Origin: [Muricauda] lutisoli (nom. illeg.)
GTDB lineage: Bacteria > Bacteroidota > Bacteroidia > Flavobacteriales > Flavobacteriaceae
Assembly: GCF_017313105.1 (NCBI RefSeq)
Contig: NZ_JAFLND010000001.1
Location: forward strand, 558,001 to 622,000
Direction of reading: 5' to 3'
DNA: 64,000 bases
This document shows positions 24,088-34,278 of the stretch, in pieces. The position numbers and the translations under genes are program-made. The stretch's first letter is position 1; each line of letters opens with the position of its first letter. The notes under the pieces are model-generated. The model saw only the letters and a list, made by a program, of their open reading frames with translations, did no database searches and was not told the origin of the DNA.

Positions 24088-24366
24088 ATGGAAAACTTTG
24101 AAGAACAACGTTATGCAAGAGCAAAGGAAAGAGTGGAGCGCATCAAGTCTTTTTACTCCAATCTAACTGCCTATTTTCTGGTGATTCCATTGCTCGCTTA
24201 CTTAAACTTTAGGACAACCGGTTTCCCCTGGTCCATTTTCCCGGCGATTGGATGGGGCCTTGGACTGGTAGGGCATTGGATGACAGCTTACGGGCAGAAC
24301 CCTATTTTTGGAAAGGAGTGGGAAGAACGTAAGATTCAGGAGCTTATGAGCAATAAAGAATTTTGA
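24088..24366 (+). CDS. 2TM domain protein A
   Basis: A 92-residue protein that is nearly all 2TM domain: RYARAKERVERIKSFYSN, two hydrophobic segments separated by NFRTTGFPW, then WEERKIQELM. It is the closest relative of the kinase C-terminal domain, sharing LNFRTT and the IGWG motif. Expected as a helical hairpin in the inner membrane with both ends in the cytoplasm. First gene of the second LytTR-controlled unit. Confidence 0.9.
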   Translation: MENFEEQRYARAKERVERIKSFYSNLTAYFLVIPLLAYLNFRTTGFPWSIFPAIGWGLGLVGHWMTAYGQNPIFGKEWEERKIQELMSNKEF

Positions 24367-24410
24367 GAATGAGTACTTTTAGCTATAACACCACATTAAA
24401 AAACAATACC

Positions 24411-24713
24411 ATGGAGTCTTCAGATAAAGAGAACAAATATTTACGGGCCAAGGAGCGTGTGGAAGAGCTCAAAAAATTTTATGGGAACCTTACTTCCTAT
24501 GTCGTGGTAATTTCGGGATTGGCCCTGATCAACTATTTTACCAACCATTTTGCCTATGCCTGGTTTTTATGGGCTGCTTTTGGCTGGGGTATCGGGATCG
24601 TTTTCCATGCCATTAAAACATTCGACCTAAACCCATTTTTTGGCAAACAGTGGGAAAAACGCAAAATAGAAGAGTTTATGCGCGATGATGAACAGAACAA
24701 CAAATGGAAATAA
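24411..24713 (+). CDS. 2TM domain protein B
   Basis: A 100-residue 2TM protein: KYLRAKERVEELKKFYGN, hydrophobic pair, FGWGIGIVFHAIKTF, WEKRKIEEFM. The frame opens further upstream (from 24363), but the ATG at 24411 gives the MES start that parallels the MEN starts of paralogues A and C. It is 44 nt after paralogue A and probably co-transcribed. Function unknown beyond the domain. Confidence 0.88.
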   Translation: MESSDKENKYLRAKERVEELKKFYGNLTSYVVVISGLALINYFTNHFAYAWFLWAAFGWGIGIVFHAIKTFDLNPFFGKQWEKRKIEEFMRDDEQNNKWK

Positions 24714-24715
24714 TC

Positions 24716-25036
24716 ATGGAAAATTTTAATAAGGAAAAATATAACAGAGCCAAAAAAAGAGTGGACGAACTCAAGGGCTTTTATATTCATTCGGCCATTT
24801 ATGTGGTGATAAACACCTTTATTTTGATCAATATTTATCTTAATACAGATAGTTTTTGGCAATGGGAGCATTTTATCACATTGATGGCCTGGGGCATTGG
24901 ATTGTTGTTCCACGCCTCAAAAACCTTTGGATTCAACCCACTATTGGGCAAGGACTGGGAAGAGCGCCAGATTCAAAAGTATATTGACGAGGACAGAGAG
25001 GAAATGAACAAGTTCAAAAAGGATGGAGACAAATAG
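24716..25036 (+). CDS. 2TM domain protein C
   Basis: A 106-residue 2TM protein: KYNRAKKRVDELKGFYIH, two membrane segments, MAWGIGLLFHASKTFGFNPLLG, WEERQIQKYI, then a charged tail. The ATG at 24716 follows the stop of paralogue B by two bases; an in-frame ATG at 24704 overlapping that stop is an alternative. Tight packing implies translational coupling. Confidence 0.88.
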   Translation: MENFNKEKYNRAKKRVDELKGFYIHSAIYVVINTFILINIYLNTDSFWQWEHFITLMAWGIGLLFHASKTFGFNPLLGKDWEERQIQKYIDEDREEMNKFKKDGDK

Positions 25037-25358
25037 AAACTTGCTGAGGAGAAATGCTGAAAAGCGAGTTAAAGAACTCAAAGGATATTATAGTCACATC
25101 ATCATTTTTGTAATCGTAAACGGTATTCTTTACCTCTTAAAAACGGGAGTTTTGAACTCCTTGTTGCCAGAAGCATTTCCAAAGGAATCTTATTATTACG
25201 ACTGGATCAATGCCAATATTCTGATTTGGGGGTTGATCTTGTTGGTGCATACCTTGATCTTATTCAGGCATAAATTCACTTTCTTTAAAAAGTGGGAGGA
25301 GCGCCAAATTCAAAAATACATGGATGAGGATAGGAGCAAGGTTGATAAATATAAGTAG
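25023..25358 (+). CDS. 2TM domain protein D (diverged)
   Basis: A 111-residue, most divergent paralogue. It keeps KRVKELKGYYSH and WEERQIQKYMDEDR, but the loop between the membrane segments is enlarged (about 25 residues with KESYYYDW) and the glycine-rich GWGxG motif is reduced to LIWGLILL. Its start overlaps paralogue C by 14 nt. The terminal gene before the LytTR regulator. Confidence 0.88.
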   Translation: METNRNLLRRNAEKRVKELKGYYSHIIIFVIVNGILYLLKTGVLNSLLPEAFPKESYYYDWINANILIWGLILLVHTLILFRHKFTFFKKWEERQIQKYMDEDRSKVDKYK

Positions 25359-25423: not shown

Positions 25424-26179
25424 ATGAATGTCCTGATCATTGAAGATGAAAAACCAGCAGCAAGACGGTTGTCCAGATTGCTCGTAGAATTGGAAATTGA
25501 AGTCTCAACCATGCTGCATTCGGTTGAAGAATCCATAGTCTGGTTCAAAGAAAATCAGCATCCCGATTTAATCTTTTTGGACATCCAATTATCGGACGGG
25601 CTTTCCTTTGAAATTTTTGATGAGGTCGAGGTAAAAAGCGCCATCATTTTTACCACTGCTTATGACGAATATGCACTCCAAGCTTTTAAGCTGAACAGCA
25701 TCGATTATTTACTTAAACCCATTGAAGAAGAAGAGCTGGAAAGTGCAGTAAAAAAGTATCGGAATTTTAAGCCTGAAAACCGAAAAATCCCCATCGATTT
25801 TAACGACATAAAAAAGCTTCTGGTAAACCCTTTGGAACGTGATTACAAAAAACGATTTACAGCTAGGGTTGGGCAACATTTAAAAATTATAAATGCTGAT
25901 GAGGTGGAATGTTTTTACAGCGAAAACAAAGGAACCTATGCTGCAACCTCCGATGGTAGAAATTATTTGTTGGACACCACTTTGGAACAGTTGGAAGAGG
26001 AATTGGAGCCGCAGACATTTTTTAGGGTAAGCCGAAAGTTCTATGTGAACATCAACCATATAGGAGATATCATTTCATACACAAATTCAAGGCTTCAAAT
26101 CAAACTGAACCGTTTTAACGAGTACGAAGTCATTGTAAGTAGGGAACGTGTTAGAGACTTTAAGTTATGGTTAGAGTAA
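25424..26179 (+). CDS. LytTR family response regulator
   Basis: A 251-residue response regulator. The receiver domain (1-115) has E7/D8 and phospho-acceptor D53 in LIFLDIQL, with T at FTTAYD and K at YLLKP. The LytTR DNA-binding domain covers about 140-250 (RFTARVGQHLKIINADEVECFYSENKGTYA ... TFFRVSRKFYVNINHI). Upstream, TACCTTTG at 25385-25392 is a perfect -7 element, so it may also have its own promoter. It should accept phosphate from the kinase at 22615 and bind the two direct-repeat sites in this locus. Confidence 0.93.
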   Translation: MNVLIIEDEKPAARRLSRLLVELEIEVSTMLHSVEESIVWFKENQHPDLIFLDIQLSDGLSFEIFDEVEVKSAIIFTTAYDEYALQAFKLNSIDYLLKPIEEEELESAVKKYRNFKPENRKIPIDFNDIKKLLVNPLERDYKKRFTARVGQHLKIINADEVECFYSENKGTYAATSDGRNYLLDTTLEQLEEELEPQTFFRVSRKFYVNINHIGDIISYTNSRLQIKLNRFNEYEVIVSRERVRDFKLWLE

Positions 26180-26268: not shown

Positions 26269-27459
26269 CTAATTTTCTTCTACCCGATTGTCATCAAAGG
26301 CCGAGGGTAGCAGTTTAGGTATCAATTTAATGAAAATTGGAAGAAGGATAGCTCCGCCAGGTAACATAAAAATTGCCAAAGAAGGAATGCTTTTAAAAAT
26401 ATCCAACAACTGATTCTGAACTTTTTTCTTTTCTTCAGCACTTAAATCCTTAACGGTTGACTTGGATAAAAGAGCAACTAATTCTCTGCTCTCGGTAAGT
26501 TCTCTTTTCAACCTTTTGCTATTTCTGAGAATGAGTTTACTAACATTTTTTGACATACCATCGTAGAACTGCACAGCTAAATTTTTGTTGCTTAAATAGG
26601 CTATTTTATCCTTATTTTTTTCGAAGAAATTTTCTACGAATTGTAGTTCCGATCTCACCTCTTTTTCCGACTTGCCAAGGTCGTTTCCCAAACCAAAAAT
26701 ATAGTCGGTTTCTGTGTAGTCCAAAGTCTTATCTTCCCATATCGTTAAGCAAGCCATATCCAAAAAATAATCCTTCTCGTTTTCGGTAAATTTTTGGGTC
26801 AATAGATCGGAATAATTGCCATCAAATTTTGCCTCATCCAGGTCTATATACGTTAACGAAGAACCCAACAATTGAATCAATTTTGCATCCAATTCATGGG
26901 TCTCTTTGGAGTTCAGTGCGTGGTATACAATATTAATGGTTACATACTCCAAAAGTTGGGCATGTTCCATAACGTTTTTTTTACCTCTTAGGTAAATTAT
27001 AAATATGAGTATGTCAACATAAAGCAGCGAATTGGTCAAGCTATTTCCAAGAGCTCTACTGAAAGTATTATCGCTCAAATAAATTCTGGAATCTATTAGT
27101 TTCTCCAGCTGTGATTCCGTTTTTGAACCGGTCAATATTTTATTCAAAAAGGAAATCCGACTGACATCCAAAGATTGGTAATACTCAAAAACCTTATTGA
27201 CGAATGCATCAAAATCCGTCTTTCCCACTTCAAAGGTATAGGTAAAGTACAAGGCAGTAAGAAGGTTGATCTTAGCAATTTCATCTTCACTAAGCGTATG
27301 CTCAACGGGTATAAACGAAGGTATGTTCAAGTGAACACCATAAATAAAGCCATTTGCTTTGAGTTGCCTGTACAAGCTGTTAAAGTCCTCGAAGTTTGAA
27401 GACTCTTGATCTACAAGGTGACCAAACTTATTGATCCAACCGGAGGCAGAAGGGTTCAT
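26269..27459 (-). CDS. LETM1-related biofilm-associated protein
   Basis: A 396-residue protein of the flavobacterial LETM1-related family. The C-terminal motif at about 360-390 (LAIFMLPGGAILLPIFIKLIPKLLPSAF) is the LETM1-like signature; the rest is helical, with a hydrophobic segment near 145-158 (SLLYVDILIFIIYL). The family name comes from a biofilm phenotype reported in related bacteria, not from a known mechanism. It is monocistronic and converges on the LytTR gene. Confidence 0.85.
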   Translation of the reverse strand: MNPSASGWINKFGHLVDQESSNFEDFNSLYRQLKANGFIYGVHLNIPSFIPVEHTLSEDEIAKINLLTALYFTYTFEVGKTDFDAFVNKVFEYYQSLDVSRISFLNKILTGSKTESQLEKLIDSRIYLSDNTFSRALGNSLTNSLLYVDILIFIIYLRGKKNVMEHAQLLEYVTINIVYHALNSKETHELDAKLIQLLGSSLTYIDLDEAKFDGNYSDLLTQKFTENEKDYFLDMACLTIWEDKTLDYTETDYIFGLGNDLGKSEKEVRSELQFVENFFEKNKDKIAYLSNKNLAVQFYDGMSKNVSKLILRNSKRLKRELTESRELVALLSKSTVKDLSAEEKKKVQNQLLDIFKSIPSLAIFMLPGGAILLPIFIKLIPKLLPSAFDDNRVEEN

Positions 27460-27625: not shown

Positions 27626-28318
27626 ATGAAAAAAACAACGAAATATCTATTAGGACTTGGATCCTTGGTAATCGCAGCCACCGTATTGGTATCTGCAGAC
27701 CACATAGATGCGCCGTCGTCGGCAGGAACTACTGCGGACATTGCCGATTTTTATGCTTTTGAACCCACTGAAGGTTCCGACAACACCGTATTTGTGGTAG
27801 ATCTTCAATCCGATGTTTTGCCAGAATTGGCGTATGGAACCTTTGACGAGGACGTACTTACCGAAATCAATATTGATTTGGATGGTGATTTGGTAGAGGA
27901 TCAAGTAATCCAAGCTATTGCAAGAGATGGTAGGATGTACTTCTTTGGACCAATGATGCCTTCGCAAACCGGCCTGAGCAGCGAAGTATATACAGATGCT
28001 GCTTTGGGCGATGTGGAGATTTCAGGTGCCACCGCAATTGTAGAAACAACGTCGGATGGCGTATCCCTATTTGCTGGACCACGACAAGACCCGTTCTTTT
28101 TCGATTTTTTCCAGTTCAACGCTGTGATTTCTCCTGAGTTGGATTCTGCACCAAAAGGTTTTTTACCTCCAGAGGAGGCTGCGGACACCTTTGATGGAGC
28201 CAACACCCTTTCCATTGTAGTGGAAATTCCAAATAGTATGTTGGGGACGCCTACCGCTACCAATGCCCTTGGTCTATCAGTTTATAAGACTTGGGTGACA
28301 ACAAACAGAAAACAATAA
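27626..28318 (+). CDS. Exported protein with the N-terminal half of a DUF4331 domain
   Basis: A 230-residue protein with a signal peptide (LVIAATVLVSA) followed by the conserved DUF4331 opening DHIDAPSSAGTTADIADFYAFEP, and VLTEINIDLDGDLVEDQVIQ. It includes PRQDPFFFDFFQF at about 155 and ends IPNSMLG...LGLSVYKTWVTT. Complete DUF4331 proteins are generally longer and carry further modules that are absent here and found in the next gene. The spacing to that gene is 19 nt. Function unknown; the family is predicted extracytoplasmic. Confidence 0.85.
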   Translation: MKKTTKYLLGLGSLVIAATVLVSADHIDAPSSAGTTADIADFYAFEPTEGSDNTVFVVDLQSDVLPELAYGTFDEDVLTEINIDLDGDLVEDQVIQAIARDGRMYFFGPMMPSQTGLSSEVYTDAALGDVEISGATAIVETTSDGVSLFAGPRQDPFFFDFFQFNAVISPELDSAPKGFLPPEEAADTFDGANTLSIVVEIPNSMLGTPTATNALGLSVYKTWVTTNRKQ

Positions 28319-28337
28319 GAAACTTAAAAACGATATT

Positions 28338-29051
28338 ATGAAACTAAGACAATCAATATATATAACTGCTCTAGTACTAAGCTTTGGTCTAGTAATTGGC
28401 TGTAGCAATGATGATAACGGAACCTATATGGATGAAGATATGATGATGGGCGATGATATGATGGGCGTTGATTTTACCGGAACATATGCGCAGGTGGATC
28501 ATCTTGGTCGCCCAGGAATCAATACCACCCTAAGTTATGATATGGAGGGTGAAGCCAGTATTAAAGATGCGCACAATACCACAATTCCTTCGGAAATGAG
28601 CGCAGTGTTTCAAATGGGATTTCAGGCCAGATTGGAGCAATACCATGATGTATATGCTTTAAAATTGGGGTTGGATCCTGCAGATGTGGATTACGAAAAC
28701 AACATTTTAGGATTGGATGCTGCAACCCTGACAACGGTTTTGGCTGCGGATGTTTTGGAAGTTGCGCCAGATCTGCCCACCACATATTTTAACCCAGGTA
28801 CCGACCTTGATAATGATGGTAACCTACTGGTTCCGGATGGTGATGAAGTGGCCCTTACCGGAAGGCACCCCAATGATGATATTATAGATGTTTCCCTAAT
28901 TCTATTTTTCGGGGGAATGGAAGGCGACAGGTTTAGTGGTCAGGACTTGGATGATGATGGAATGGCCGATTTACCAAGACTAACATCGGATGGTGTTGGG
29001 CTTACGGCCAATATTTCGACTACATTCCCCTATTTGGGAGCACCCGAGTAA
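28338..29051 (+). CDS. Lipoprotein with the C-terminal half of a DUF4331 domain
   Basis: A 237-residue lipoprotein (LVIGC, C22). SNDDNG after the cysteine resembles the acidic surface-export signal of Bacteroidota lipoproteins, so surface display is likely. The mature part matches the C-terminal modules of DUF4331: QVDHLGRPGINTTL, then TGRHPNDDIIDVSLILFFGG, then DGVGLTANISTTFPYLGAPE. It complements the preceding gene, giving a DUF4331 protein divided into a soluble half and an anchored half. Confidence 0.85.
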   Translation: MKLRQSIYITALVLSFGLVIGCSNDDNGTYMDEDMMMGDDMMGVDFTGTYAQVDHLGRPGINTTLSYDMEGEASIKDAHNTTIPSEMSAVFQMGFQARLEQYHDVYALKLGLDPADVDYENNILGLDAATLTTVLAADVLEVAPDLPTTYFNPGTDLDNDGNLLVPDGDEVALTGRHPNDDIIDVSLILFFGGMEGDRFSGQDLDDDGMADLPRLTSDGVGLTANISTTFPYLGAPE

Positions 29052-29071: not shown

Positions 29072-29103
29072 GGGGGAAGGAAATCTTCCTTCCCCTTTTT
29101 TTT
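29072..29103 (+). terminator. Terminator between the DUF4331 pair and the TPR lipoprotein
   Basis: Strong stem GGGGAAGGA / TCCTTCCCC-type with a short loop, followed by eight T residues. Probably partial, because the TPR gene starts only 20 nt further on. Confidence 0.85.
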
Positions 29104-29122
29104 AATCTAATACAACAACAAG

Positions 29123-30412
29123 ATGAAAACAACAATACAATATATCTTTTTACCAATAGCCTTATTGTTTTTGGCATCATGTCAGCAAAAGGAAAATGAA
29201 TTTAAAACAGATAAAGAGGATTACGATCGTTTTCTCGCATCAGCACCAGTAAAACCAACCTCAAAATATTTTGACCTTTGGAATGGCAAAATCAAACCCG
29301 ATAGTACCCAATTGCTCAGCTTGGGGAATGTTGCCGGTGAGTATAGCCGTTTTTTTAAGGCAACGGGCGATATCCAATATTTAAAAGATGCCGAGGAATC
29401 CCTGAAAAAGGCAGTGGAAATCGCTGCAGTGGGAAAATCGGGATACCTGAGGGCATTGGCCAGAAATTACATTTCGCAACATAGGTTTAAAGAAGCTTTG
29501 GTCCTCGCAAAAGAGGCAAGGGCTTTAGGAAGTGGAGAAAAGGAAACCCAGCGTTTACTTTTTGACCTTCACATGGAACTGGGAAATTACGATTTGGCAA
29601 ATCAATATTTGGATAGTATCCAGAATATGTCCGACTTTGGTTATTTGATCCGTGTTGCAAAATGGAACGACCATAAAGGGGACTTGGACACTGCAATCCA
29701 ATTTATGGAAAAGGCCATGGCTAAGGCCGAATCCTCCAAAAATAAAAACCTGTTGTTATGGTCCTATACCAACCTAGCTGATTTTTATGGTCATGCTGGG
29801 CGTATTGAAGACTCTTATAAGTTATATCTAAGTGCACTGCAAATAGACCCTCAAAATGCATATGCCAAAAAGGGCATTGCATGGATCGTGTACTCTTATG
29901 AGAGAAATGGCGAAGAAGCTCTCCGGATTTTGGACGCTATCATGCAAAAGAACAAGTCACCCGAATATTACCTGTTAAAAGCTGAAGTGGCTTCTTTTTT
30001 AAACAACGATATACTTCGAGTTCAAGCATTGGACGATTATTACAAAGTTGTTGCTAGCAATAAAAATTACGGTGACATGTACAATGCTTACAATGTGGAT
30101 TTTCTGTTAAGTATGGATGTGGAACGAAAAGCTTTCGAGCTGGCACGGGAGGAGGTTCTAAATAGACCTACCCCGGAATCTTATGGCCTGTTTGCCTACA
30201 GTTTGCTTCATTTGGGTGAGAAACAAAAAGCGATGCAGGTTATTGAAGATCATGTAATGAATGCCACTTATGAGCCTGCCATTCTTCAGCAAGCTGCCGA
30301 AATTTATAAGGCCAATGGAAAAAAAGATAGGGTCAGCGAACTAAAGAATGAACTATTGTCGGCTGCTTACGAGCTCGGTCCAATTAAAGAGGCTCAAATA
30401 CTAGGCCTTTAG
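29123..30412 (+). CDS. TPR-repeat lipoprotein
   Basis: A 429-residue lipoprotein (LLFLASC, C19). It is composed of TPR units, for example YLKDAEESLKKAVEIA, RFKEALVLAKEARALG, DLDTAIQFMEKAMAKAE, RIEDSYKLYLSALQIDPQN and EKQKAMQVIEDHV. Downstream of the DUF4331 pair in the same direction, it is a plausible scaffold for them. No catalytic motif visible. Confidence 0.87.
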   Translation: MKTTIQYIFLPIALLFLASCQQKENEFKTDKEDYDRFLASAPVKPTSKYFDLWNGKIKPDSTQLLSLGNVAGEYSRFFKATGDIQYLKDAEESLKKAVEIAAVGKSGYLRALARNYISQHRFKEALVLAKEARALGSGEKETQRLLFDLHMELGNYDLANQYLDSIQNMSDFGYLIRVAKWNDHKGDLDTAIQFMEKAMAKAESSKNKNLLLWSYTNLADFYGHAGRIEDSYKLYLSALQIDPQNAYAKKGIAWIVYSYERNGEEALRILDAIMQKNKSPEYYLLKAEVASFLNNDILRVQALDDYYKVVASNKNYGDMYNAYNVDFLLSMDVERKAFELAREEVLNRPTPESYGLFAYSLLHLGEKQKAMQVIEDHVMNATYEPAILQQAAEIYKANGKKDRVSELKNELLSAAYELGPIKEAQILGL

Positions 30413-31112: not shown

Positions 31113-32093
31113 ATGAAAACAGATTTTGAAGAAAATTCATGGGTGATCAACTATTCACCGGACAATTACTACAACCGAAAATTCTCTTTACAGGAAGATC
31201 TGCAGCTCTCTAAAGGAGACAAATCCATTACTTGGGTAAACACCTATGGTTTGGATTATATGGAAGAGTTTAGGCAAATGGTGAACGGTAATAACCTTGA
31301 CGACTTTTTGTTGCGTCTCCTCTTGAATCAAAAAATGGGAAACAAAGTCATTGTGCTGGAAGACCAACTCTTCATCGCTGCCCGCATACTAAAAACGGAG
31401 CATCACAGTATGGAGTCCGAACAAATGTATTTTGTGGTGTCCAAGGATTTTAACTGGTGCATACAAGAAAAGAGGGGCGACCATTTCGATTGGATTCGCC
31501 AACGGATATTTGAAAACAAAGGGATTATTAGAAAAAAGCGTGCGGACTATCTGCTCTTTTTCATTCTGGAAACTTTGATTACCAATTACAAAGAGAAATA
31601 CGAAGATACCGTAGTAATGGAAAATGCCCTGGATGCCATTGTAAAACGTGAACCCACACCAGAATTCATGTTCGAGGTTGAACAAAAAAAGGCGATGATC
31701 CAAGATTTCAAAAAAGCATCTCATGGACTCCGGGACATTATAATAAAGCTGGAAAGAGTCGAGGTAAAAGGGTTTCAGACCAAATATTTTAGCGAGCTTA
31801 GGGAGCAAATCAATGGTTTGATCGCGGATATTGACTCCGACATAATGGAACTGGAAAGCCAGATCAATCTGTTCTTTAGTGTACAGGGCCATCGTTTGAA
31901 CGAAGTAATGAAGACCCTCACCATTTTCTCGGTGGTTTTTATTCCGCTCACATTTATGGCGGGCATTTATGGAATGAACTTCGAAAACATGCCCGAATTA
32001 AAATCACCCTATGGTTATTTTATACTGTTGGGCGTAATGCTCATTGTGACCATTATCTCCATTATTATTTTTAAACGAAAAAAATGGTTTTAA
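31113..32093 (+). CDS. corA: CorA-family divalent cation transporter
   Basis: A 326-residue CorA-type protein. A large N-terminal cytoplasmic domain with long helices (residues 190-260) leads to two C-terminal membrane helices at about 265-290 and 300-320, separated by the family's signature YGMNFENMPE (GMN selectivity motif). It should form a pentamer importing Mg2+ or other divalent ions. TAAATTTG at 31055-31062 is a perfect -7 element upstream. Divergent from the MscS gene. Confidence 0.92.
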   Translation: MKTDFEENSWVINYSPDNYYNRKFSLQEDLQLSKGDKSITWVNTYGLDYMEEFRQMVNGNNLDDFLLRLLLNQKMGNKVIVLEDQLFIAARILKTEHHSMESEQMYFVVSKDFNWCIQEKRGDHFDWIRQRIFENKGIIRKKRADYLLFFILETLITNYKEKYEDTVVMENALDAIVKREPTPEFMFEVEQKKAMIQDFKKASHGLRDIIIKLERVEVKGFQTKYFSELREQINGLIADIDSDIMELESQINLFFSVQGHRLNEVMKTLTIFSVVFIPLTFMAGIYGMNFENMPELKSPYGYFILLGVMLIVTIISIIIFKRKKWF

Positions 32094-32223: not shown

Positions 32224-32874
32224 ATGATGAGAAAAAGAATACTAGTAGCAGTAATGGCTGTAATGGGATTAACCAATTTGGCAATGGCCCAAGATGCCCC
32301 AGCTGACAACGATGGCAAATGGCAATTTAGATTGAGGGGAATTGTGATTTCTCCTGATGAGAGTGCCGATATCGAAGTTATAGGAGGGGATGTGGACATT
32401 TCAACCGCTTTTGTTCCAGAATTCGACATTACCTACTTTTTTGATGATAATTGGTCCTTGGAACTTATTTTGGGTACTGCTAAGCACGATGTTGAAGCTG
32501 TGGGTACCGATGCAGGTGATATTGATTTGGGCAGTGTATGGTTATTACCACCAACGCTTACGGCCCAGTATCATTTTACCGGGGGTGATTTTGTTCCATA
32601 CCTTGGAGCTGGTCCAAATTTAACACTATTCTACGGTGTTGATGAAGGTCCTGTAGCAGATGATGTGGAATATGACACTGCTGTTGGTTTTGCACTTCAG
32701 GGTGGTTTCGATTTTATGTTGAATGATAAATGGTTCTTGAACTTTGATGTAAAAAAATTATTCTTGAACACTACTGCCACTGTTGATGCAACGACCGCAT
32801 TGGGAGCCACTGTGGATGCCGATGTAGACATTAACCCATGGATCTTTGGATTTGGGGTAGGTCTTAAACTTTAA
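32224..32874 (+). CDS. OmpW family outer-membrane protein
   Basis: A 216-residue small beta-barrel. Signal peptide (MGLTNLAMA); then the OmpW pattern KWQFRLRGIVISPDES, FVPEFDITYFFDDNWSLELILGTAKHDV, PPTLTAQYHF, FVPYLGAGPNLTLFY, and the terminal strand WIFGFGVGLKL ending in L. OmpW proteins are eight-stranded channels for small hydrophobic or cationic molecules. Monocistronic with promoter and terminator. Confidence 0.92.
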   Translation: MMRKRILVAVMAVMGLTNLAMAQDAPADNDGKWQFRLRGIVISPDESADIEVIGGDVDISTAFVPEFDITYFFDDNWSLELILGTAKHDVEAVGTDAGDIDLGSVWLLPPTLTAQYHFTGGDFVPYLGAGPNLTLFYGVDEGPVADDVEYDTAVGFALQGGFDFMLNDKWFLNFDVKKLFLNTTATVDATTALGATVDADVDINPWIFGFGVGLKL

Positions 32875-32950: not shown

Positions 32951-33754
32951 TTAGGCACCTACGGCACCCAAAGTGTACAATTGTTCCAATGTTGGTGTCT
33001 CGCTACCACCTTCGGGCTCTAAGGTAATTCCGAATGCTTCCGATTCGTTGGCGTTTTCCAAGGTGAAGAGCTTGGTGTCTTGCGAAGCAAAATCATCCAA
33101 CAAACCAATGCTGGTCGGAGTAAGCGGGTTCAACTTTAAGGACCAAACTTGATACGTGAAACCATCGGGTGGTTCGGGCAGTCCTTTTGCATCTATGATT
33201 ACTTTCTGTTCTTCTTTGTTCCAATAGGCTTTGGCATAGGATTCAGGGGAAACGGTTTGTCCGCCAAGGGCAATTACTGTTATATCTTTATCCCTGATGT
33301 CCTCCAATAAACTCTCCGTAGTGGTTACTTCTTCCCGGGTTTCGGATAGTATGTCTTCCAAGCTTTGCTTTTCTTGATTGGTAAGCTCAATCTCGGATTT
33401 GAGTTTTGCATTTTCCCTGTACATCCAGAACAATCCAACAGCCAATAAAATGGATGCGGCCCAACCTAAATAATTGCCCCAGGGCGTCCTTTTGGTTTTG
33501 GAACCTTCGGGGGTAAATGGGATAACATCATCTATTTCGGCCTTTATTTTTGCAAAACCATCTTGTGGCATTTTGGGTGAAGCAGCTTTTGTCAGCTTAA
33601 GAACGGCCTTTTCGATTTCTTCAATTTCTCTCCTGATTTCCGGATACTGTATGGCATAATGTTGCACCTCTAGATTTTCTTCAGGCGATAGCGCTCCAGC
33701 AACGTAGAGTTCCAATTTTCCAGAAGCTATGTATTCTTTTACATCTATGCTCAT
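32951..33754 (-). CDS. Anti-sigma factor (RskA-like)
   Basis: A 267-residue membrane protein that overlaps the sigma-factor gene by 4 nt. The N-terminal 90 residues are a cytoplasmic anti-sigma segment (LELYVAGALSPEENLEVQHY); a single membrane helix lies at about 93-112, followed by a coiled-coil stretch and a C-terminal RskA domain (PEPPDGFTYQVWSLKLNPLTPTSIGLL). It should hold the ECF sigma factor at the inner membrane until an envelope signal leads to release. No zinc-type HxxxCxxC motif is visible. Confidence 0.9.
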   Translation of the reverse strand: MSIDVKEYIASGKLELYVAGALSPEENLEVQHYAIQYPEIRREIEEIEKAVLKLTKAASPKMPQDGFAKIKAEIDDVIPFTPEGSKTKRTPWGNYLGWAASILLAVGLFWMYRENAKLKSEIELTNQEKQSLEDILSETREEVTTTESLLEDIRDKDITVIALGGQTVSPESYAKAYWNKEEQKVIIDAKGLPEPPDGFTYQVWSLKLNPLTPTSIGLLDDFASQDTKLFTLENANESEAFGITLEPEGGSETPTLEQLYTLGAVGA

Positions 33755-34278
33755 GCCATATTTTTTCTAATGTTGGAAATACAGCTTCTAATTCTTGTTT
33801 TTATGGTACCAATGGGCGTATCCAGCTCTTTGGCAGCTTCTTTTTGGGTATAACCCTTAAAGTAAAGCATATCAATTAGCAAAATACACTTTTCCTTGAG
33901 TCCTTTCAATAAGGATTGAAGTCCAATAGTGTCCATTTTGCTGTTTAAATCTTCACCACTTTCAAAAATACCTACGAGAGAATCTACAGGAAGGTTCTTT
34001 TTTTGGTTTTTATGGGTTTTGGAGCGCACTTCATCGATAGCGGCATTCCTCGCAATATTTAATATCCATGTAAAAAAACGACCTTTCGAGGGGTCGTATT
34101 GATCGGATTTCTCCCAGATTTTCACAAAAACATCCTGACAGATTTCTTGGGAGCGCTCCGAATCCTTTACGATTACGTTAATTGCTCCACAAATATTCTC
34201 AGCGTACATATTGTACAAGGTCTCAAAAGCGACCGTATCCTTTTGCTGAAATAGTTGTATGAGGTTGTCCAGATGCAT
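33751..34278 (-). CDS. ECF-type RNA polymerase sigma factor
   Basis: A 175-residue sigma-70 family factor of the ECF group. Region 2 is SQEICQDVFVKIWEKSDQYDPSKGRFFTWILNIARNAAID (about 44-82); region 4 is the helix-turn-helix YTQKEAAKELDTPIGTIKTRIRSCISNIRKN at the C-terminus. Followed by its anti-sigma gene with an ATGA overlap. Resembles the SigK/RskA type. Its regulon is unknown; the neighbouring YceI and SodC genes share promoter features and are candidates. Confidence 0.92.
   Translation of the reverse strand: MHLDNLIQLFQQKDTVAFETLYNMYAENICGAINVIVKDSERSQEICQDVFVKIWEKSDQYDPSKGRFFTWILNIARNAAIDEVRSKTHKNQKKNLPVDSLVGIFESGEDLNSKMDTIGLQSLLKGLKEKCILLIDMLYFKGYTQKEAAKELDTPIGTIKTRIRSCISNIRKNMA

Follow-up and report, generated by a model that had tools for sequence, protein, structure and literature searches.

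A conserved two-protein version of the uncharacterised DUF4331 domain in Flavobacteriaceae

Two adjacent genes of [Muricauda] lutisoli, designated D1 and D2, each encode part of a DUF4331 domain (PF14224), and each gene product has an export signal of its own. Such an arrangement raises the question whether one gene has been broken, whether two proteins have gone separate ways, or whether the domain is genuinely made of two parts; if the last, it is further asked on which side of the outer membrane the pair works and what it binds. The window analysed here is a stretch of 64,000 nucleotides (positions 558,001 to 622,000 of contig NZ_JAFLND010000001.1, assembly GCF_017313105.1), and coordinates given without a locus label refer to it. 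Among 5.39 million open papers, a text search for DUF4331 and its accessions found no described function and no relevant paper, and a split two-protein DUF4331 was likewise not found in these open papers.

D1 (27626..28318) encodes 230 amino acids and D2 (28338..29051) 237 amino acids. Both genes, and all features described within them, lie on the plus strand; their reading frames differ and are separated by a spacer of 19 nt (28319..28337). D1 matches PF14224 with 79.2 bits, against the Pfam cut-off of 27, over profile positions of about 1-238 in two pieces; D2 matches with 29.3 bits, just above the same cut-off, over positions 248-421. The two ranges do not overlap. The full profile (1-421) is not found in one protein here, but is covered only by D1 and D2 jointly, and in the whole genome these two pieces are the sole DUF4331 matches. 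The signatures DHIDAPS, ADFYAF, GRPGINTTL, GRHPNDDIIDVSL and FPYLGAPE were all found in the D1 and D2 translations. NCBIfam holds no family for D2 and matches D1 at chance level only, and a sequence search of solved structures with D1 and with profiles A3 and A1 returned nothing convincing.

D1 is a Sec-exported soluble protein without an anchor. Its signal peptide (27626..27694) ends in VLVS-ADHIDAP, where the position of the cut is uncertain and the mature protein starts with A-D-H or D-H. D2 is a lipoprotein, with an N-terminus reading LVIGC-SNDDNGTYMDED, i.e., a lipobox with the lipidated cysteine C22 (28401..28403) and then an acidic tract. D1 and D2 are thus a split variant of DUF4331. 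The original prediction had assigned the N- and C-terminal halves of the domain to two proteins 19 nt apart, each with its own export signal; the signal peptide, the lipobox and the spacing are confirmed, and the profile search proposed as a check of complementary coverage speaks outright in favour. Further into D1, the acidic loop D84-x-D-G-D88-x-x-E-D92 (27875..27901), which is putatively calcium-loop-like, has D84, D88 and D92 invariant in 37 D1 proteins; R153, D155, P156, F157 and D160 of the RxDPFFxD motif (R153-D160, 28082..28105) are also invariant in 37 D1, and D155, F157 and D160 are conserved in one-piece DUF4331 as well. C22 and the TGRxxxDD motif of D2 (T174-D181, 28857..28880) are invariant in 37 D2, and the G, R and both D of that motif recur in one-piece DUF4331.

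The D1-D2 order is kept in 150 of 150 distinct pairs, and neither half was found without its partner; one further DUF4331 stretch, outside the 150 pairs, is cut by the end of its locus (L229). The spacing ranges from -71 to 294 nt with a median of 22 nt (146 pairs lie between -30 and 80 nt), the overlaps partly reflecting the choice of the first possible start codon. A lipobox was found by script in 149 of the 150 D2 proteins, the exception being a late start in the ORF call. The window's genome is of the Flagellimonas/Allomuricauda type; its D1 shares 95% identity with D1 of Flagellimonas lutimaris. DUF4331 was found in 36 of 99 genomes of a genus-centred sample (35 of the 60 from the genus), in 104 of 249 genomes of a Flavobacteriaceae sample, and in 48 of 395 genomes of a phylum sample, 15 of these 48 being Flavobacteriaceae. 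A search of the Flavobacteriaceae sample with the D2 alignment found 105 of 249 genomes, namely the 104 that bear D1 and one marginal genome (G126, E=9e-4). Besides Flavobacteriaceae, four further families (codes f4, f18, f22 and f38) have split forms, and f38 lies outside the class. A few genomes (loci L074, L080, L138 and L139) carry the tandem D1-D2-D1-D2, always in that order. Tandem copies of one-piece DUF4331 at L083, L084, L086 and L089 mirror these split pairs.

One-piece DUF4331 is known from other Bacteroidota and from plasmids of Streptomyces, Pseudoalteromonas, Sulfitobacter, Paracoccus and others. In a 126-row alignment the split point falls between a conserved W..SR and SG-W-Q, in a short variable loop of the one-piece forms, and at 40 positions (21 in the D1 part, 19 in the D2 part) split and one-piece forms share the same amino acid. 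Trees were calculated in a quick search mode for the D1 region (64 rows, 32 split and 32 one-piece) and for the D2 region (61 rows, three that were too short having been dropped). In each of them a branch with a support of 100 sets all split rows apart from the one-piece rows; this branch is long. With a root among the one-piece forms, the trees fit one splitting event, and from the sequences the split looks old and fixed. A survey of Flavobacteriaceae for fused versus split forms had been proposed with the original prediction; both halves lie in the same 104 genomes, and the trees set the split forms apart from the one-piece forms.

Joint models were calculated with AlphaFold2 as single linked chains, in which the linker forces nearness and pTM is not an interface score. 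The window pair (103 rows, no one-piece row) gave a mean pLDDT of 88.5 and a pTM of 0.88. A pair from the same genus (L034), whose D1 and D2 are 85.6% and 83.5% identical to those of the window, gave 87.8 and 0.88 (126 rows, 22 of them one-piece). Values of pLDDT below 50 are confined to the surroundings of the D2 acidic linker, and the first ten residues, with the conserved histidine, are less certain (mean pLDDT 72 in the L034 model and 68 in the window model). Many alignments to beta-sandwich domains, for which only the first and last aligned residues are reported, run from about residue 11 in D1 to about residue 360 inside D2 and cover about 115-125 residues. Because this range spans D1 into D2 with a single domain's worth of residues, strands of D2 may complete the beta-sandwich of D1. 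The top aligned chain is the C-terminal part of glucodextranase 1ug9 for both the L034 model (Z 5.9, 153 aligned residues, rmsd 3.9) and the window model (Z 6.0, 159 aligned residues, rmsd 4.2), with 17-18% identity versus 2-14% for the other listed rows. Chain C of ethylbenzene dehydrogenase (2ivf) is among the alignments of the window model. A Foldseek search of solved structures gave no match at E<=0.001; cellobiose dehydrogenase (4qi7) was second, above that value. The co-folding check proposed earlier has yielded a confident joint fold twice and so speaks in favour of the prediction, with linked chains only. That D1 and D2 are paired halves of one domain is considered very probable, and the two would be physically bound in the cell.

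Two readings deny such a pair. A frameshift, a sequencing error or an annotation artefact would explain why adjacent ORFs cover one family, but D2 has a signal peptide and lipobox, the spacing is kept in many genera, the three possible offsets between the D1 and D2 frames are all in use (54, 51 and 45 of the 150 pairs), and the split forms are a single supported group. The original prediction had already held that this is not a simple frameshift, given the separate export signals; with the 150 conserved pairs, the trees and the D2 lipobox the artefact is refuted, its remaining probability being negligible. Alternatively, the halves may have diverged into independent proteins which keep ancestral folds and do not bind each other. 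Their separate export signals would suit this reading, and the contact itself is a prediction of the models. It is contradicted by the lack of any unpaired half beside the 150 pairs, by the identical genome distribution, by tandem duplicates that keep both partners (L138, L139, L080) and by the joint fold, and is regarded as highly improbable.

The pair is followed by a gene for a TPR lipoprotein (29123..30412, plus strand), identified by profile match and locus comparison as a conserved neighbour of split and one-piece DUF4331 alike. Among 57 loci viewed, which differ in the length of the stretch and of which 20, window included, come from the window's genus, the TPR gene is present in 54, a TonB receptor in 25, an RskA-type anti-sigma factor in 27 and a HupE-type permease in six. 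Between D2 and the TPR gene lies a terminator-like hairpin with a T run (29072..29104, plus strand), and a similar hairpin is found there in 65 of 149 loci; it has the longest stem among six sites that a terminator scan found in the region, where 3.4 were expected from shuffles. Such a hairpin would favour the binder over the products of the later genes, an arrangement found in many binding-protein operons. Genes for an RskA-type anti-sigma and an ECF sigma factor (32951..34278, minus strand) are possible regulators. Genes of these two types are found repeatedly near DUF4331 in different phyla; in Pseudoalteromonas (L230) and at L128 they immediately precede it. Downstream of the TPR gene are a CorA-type divalent cation transporter (31113-32093) and an OmpW-type barrel (32224-32874), also found there in many members of the genus. 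Divergent from D1 is a gene for a protein resembling the LETM1 ribosome-binding domain (26269-27459, minus strand), kept in 29 of the 57 loci. Farther away, four consecutive similar ORFs of about 92-116 amino acids (24088-25358), two of which were tested and match the 2TM domain (PF13239), precede a LytTR response regulator (25424-26179). A role in anti-phage defence was considered and rejected: PADLOC gave no match for D1 or D2, and what it matched in the TPR protein was weak and of TPR type.

The lipoprotein export signal of Bacteroidetes is described (PMC5080379) as a polar residue followed by acidic residues after the cysteine, for example SDDDD in Bacteroides fragilis and SDDFE in Flavobacterium johnsoniae. 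The acidic tract of D2 begins with SNDDN (28404..28418), which is similar to these signals, and CSNDDN shows the polar and then acidic residues near the lipid cysteine that mark an LES. Mean net acidity at positions +2 to +7 is 2.76 for D2 (148 scored of 150) versus 0.21 for the TPR lipoproteins of the same loci (92 of 92; Mann-Whitney p ~1e-32, uncorrected for relatedness). Because its tract resembles the published signals, D2 is probably surface-facing. The TPR lipoprotein, the region of which after the cysteine is not acidic, probably faces the periplasm. The suggestion that it could hold the pair was not borne out, given this difference in acidity and a hairpin that separates its gene from D2. 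A T9SS tail (sorting domain TIGR04183) is found in 22 of 32 one-piece DUF4331 proteins, a set that includes five from outside Bacteroidota and in which L083 and L112 are misses; D1 and D2 have no match to TIGR04183 up to E=1. In two Rhodobacterales the one-piece gene adjoins type II secretion genes. Together with the D2 tract, the T9SS tails and the type II neighbours make an outer-surface role likely, and an outward-facing location of the pair is accordingly favoured with reasonable confidence. No export path through the outer membrane is known for D1, the presence of which at the surface may follow from its pairing with D2. That the halves meet outside the inner membrane, with the lipoprotein half anchored, fits the lipobox and surface-type tract of D2, and binding of D1 to D2 in the cell is an inference.

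As to the ligand, the sole histidine conserved in both split and one-piece DUF4331 adjoins the signal-peptide cut, and the sequence SSHREAP occurs without variation in 32 of 32 one-piece proteins. Three residues before this histidine, all 36 one-piece forms have A, S or G, and all 148 D1 scored (150 given) have A or S; residues of this kind are required for a signal peptidase cut. A home-made cut score preferred the SSH start in 27 of 36 one-piece forms; for D1 it preferred D-H in 88 of 148 and A-D-H in 35 of 148. An X-X-His N-terminus is the copper/nickel ATCUN arrangement, and this reading is weaker in split D1 than in the one-piece forms because of the preference for the D-H cut. A literature search on N-terminal ATCUN-type nickel sites found no paper on the DUF4331 family.

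Gene neighbours also bear on the ligand. In Streptomyces the order is DUF4331-TPR-permease, and the permease belongs to the NicO nickel-transport family. Pseudoalteromonas and a Comamonadaceae have the same order interrupted by small genes, with HupE_UreJ_2 as the permease. In the 395-genome phylum sample HupE_UreJ_2 lies within 7 kb in nine of the 48 DUF4331-bearing genomes (eight within ~3 kb), where rough arithmetic gives a chance expectation of less than one genome. However, none of the 15 Flavobacteriaceae among these 48 genomes has HupE within 7 kb, and HupE of the window genome is on another contig. Histidine directly follows the signal peptide in seven of seven linked permeases whose start was read, a count that leaves out two of the six HupE-cluster members. 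HupE permeases with such a histidine are described as metal-catching 'anglerases' in a 2025 study (PMC12537917). Four TonB receptors linked to DUF4331 of one-piece or early split form (L035:7360-9585, L112:11422-13698, L117:10563-12845 and L228:4467-5351) would likewise have histidine as the first mature residue. A TonB receptor is absent beside the window operon, which does not favour a receptor-linked role; the best receptor homologue of the window's genome is unlinked (G000 C3, 49% identity), and a search for a receptor substrate with NCBIfam models gave scores far below cut-off throughout. In the window's genome (L234:6165-11003) a His-rich 128-aa protein without a family match precedes the unlinked TonB receptor homologue; next come a BlaI-type repressor and an M56 protein bearing TonB C-terminal domains (a BlaI/BlaR1-like pair).

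The explanation preferred here is that D1 and D2, as halves of one DUF4331 domain, would form an obligate non-covalent pair, with D2 anchored in the outer membrane and probably outward-facing, and D1 sitting on D2. The pair would replace the one-piece, T9SS-exported DUF4331 of other Bacteroidota. At the surface it would most likely capture a transition metal in divalent form, either nickel, cobalt or copper, or a complex of one. A TonB receptor might then take over the metal, and further along the route the TPR protein in the periplasm and, in relatives, a HupE/NicO permease might act. Taken as a whole, an obligate surface pair capturing transition metal is judged about evenly balanced between true and false. 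Metal capture, a reasoned hypothesis and the best supported of the functions considered, is suggested by the gene neighbours (TPR, TonB receptor, HupE/NicO) and the sole invariant histidine by the signal-peptide cut, and is put slightly below that balance. Rather unlikely is the boldest form, in which D1 crosses the outer membrane paired with D2 to make a lipid-anchored surface metal trap with the X-X-His of D1 in the metal site; if true, D1-D2 would represent a piggyback export route and the founding member of a surface metal-capture family.

Two other readings accept the pair and differ on its place or ligand. Were both halves periplasmic, a true pair could serve with the TPR lipoprotein as a metal or ligand buffer, in line with the lack of a known signal that would take D1 beyond the inner membrane and with a TPR partner that looks periplasmic and, in 54 of 57 loci, accompanies DUF4331 more constantly than any other gene. 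The acidic tract of D2 argues otherwise, as do the T9SS tails of 22 of 32 one-piece relatives and the type II secretion genes that adjoin the two Rhodobacterales copies, and this reading has perhaps a modest chance of being right. A DOMON/CBD9-like beta-sandwich that binds heme or sugar and hands it to a TonB receptor appears less likely still. It could draw on 1ug9 as the best alignment in both models and on the appearance of 2ivf chain C and 4qi7, the three of which presumably belong to one superfamily; yet Z of about 6 is in a range that the tool calls common, Foldseek has none of them at E<=0.001, no such family turned up when solved structures were searched with profiles, and for heme D1 and D2 offer no invariant Met, Lys or second His as a ligand. 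The surface pair with a transition metal as its ligand is retained as the preferred explanation.

By its sequence, the pair is real and conserved, and divides between two proteins a domain that is uncharacterised and probably exposed at the surface. DUF4331 is here split by nature, so that its halves lend themselves to expression, mixing and mutation. Should D1 reach the surface, it would show that a surface lipoprotein can carry a soluble protein out with it, a point that bears on surface lipoprotein export in Bacteroidota. Should nickel, cobalt or copper prove to be the ligand, the pair would name a widespread outer-membrane metal-uptake step in marine flavobacteria.

Among known systems, the BtuB-BtuG type (cf. 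PMC10404256) likewise combines a surface lipoprotein with a TonB receptor in Bacteroidota, and is likened here by arrangement, not by sequence; in contrast, the surface binder of the window consists of two proteins and the receptor is not adjacent. Anglerases are HupE/UreJ permeases with an N-terminal-His metal-binding domain (PMC12537917). Relatives of the D1-D2 operon carry HupE permeases with histidine next to the signal peptide, and DUF4331 shows a conserved histidine there in the same way. Unlike the anglerases, DUF4331 is not fused to a permease, since neither D1 nor D2 matches any other family; it probably lies at the outer surface and has its histidine at position 2 or 3 instead of 1, and its metal binding is putative. 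The same study describes the metal sequesterase DUF6702, common in Bacteroidota, which binds Ni, Co and Cu; it is, as DUF4331 may be, an exported beta-sandwich with an N-terminal histidine, and belongs to a different family. One-piece DUF4331 (PF14224) of other Bacteroidota, Actinomycetota and Pseudomonadota differs from the split form, which is made of two proteins with separate export signals, has no T9SS tail and is without an insert of about 100 amino acids in the second half. It belongs to the same family, with conserved residues in both halves, and the same TPR gene follows it in most loci viewed.
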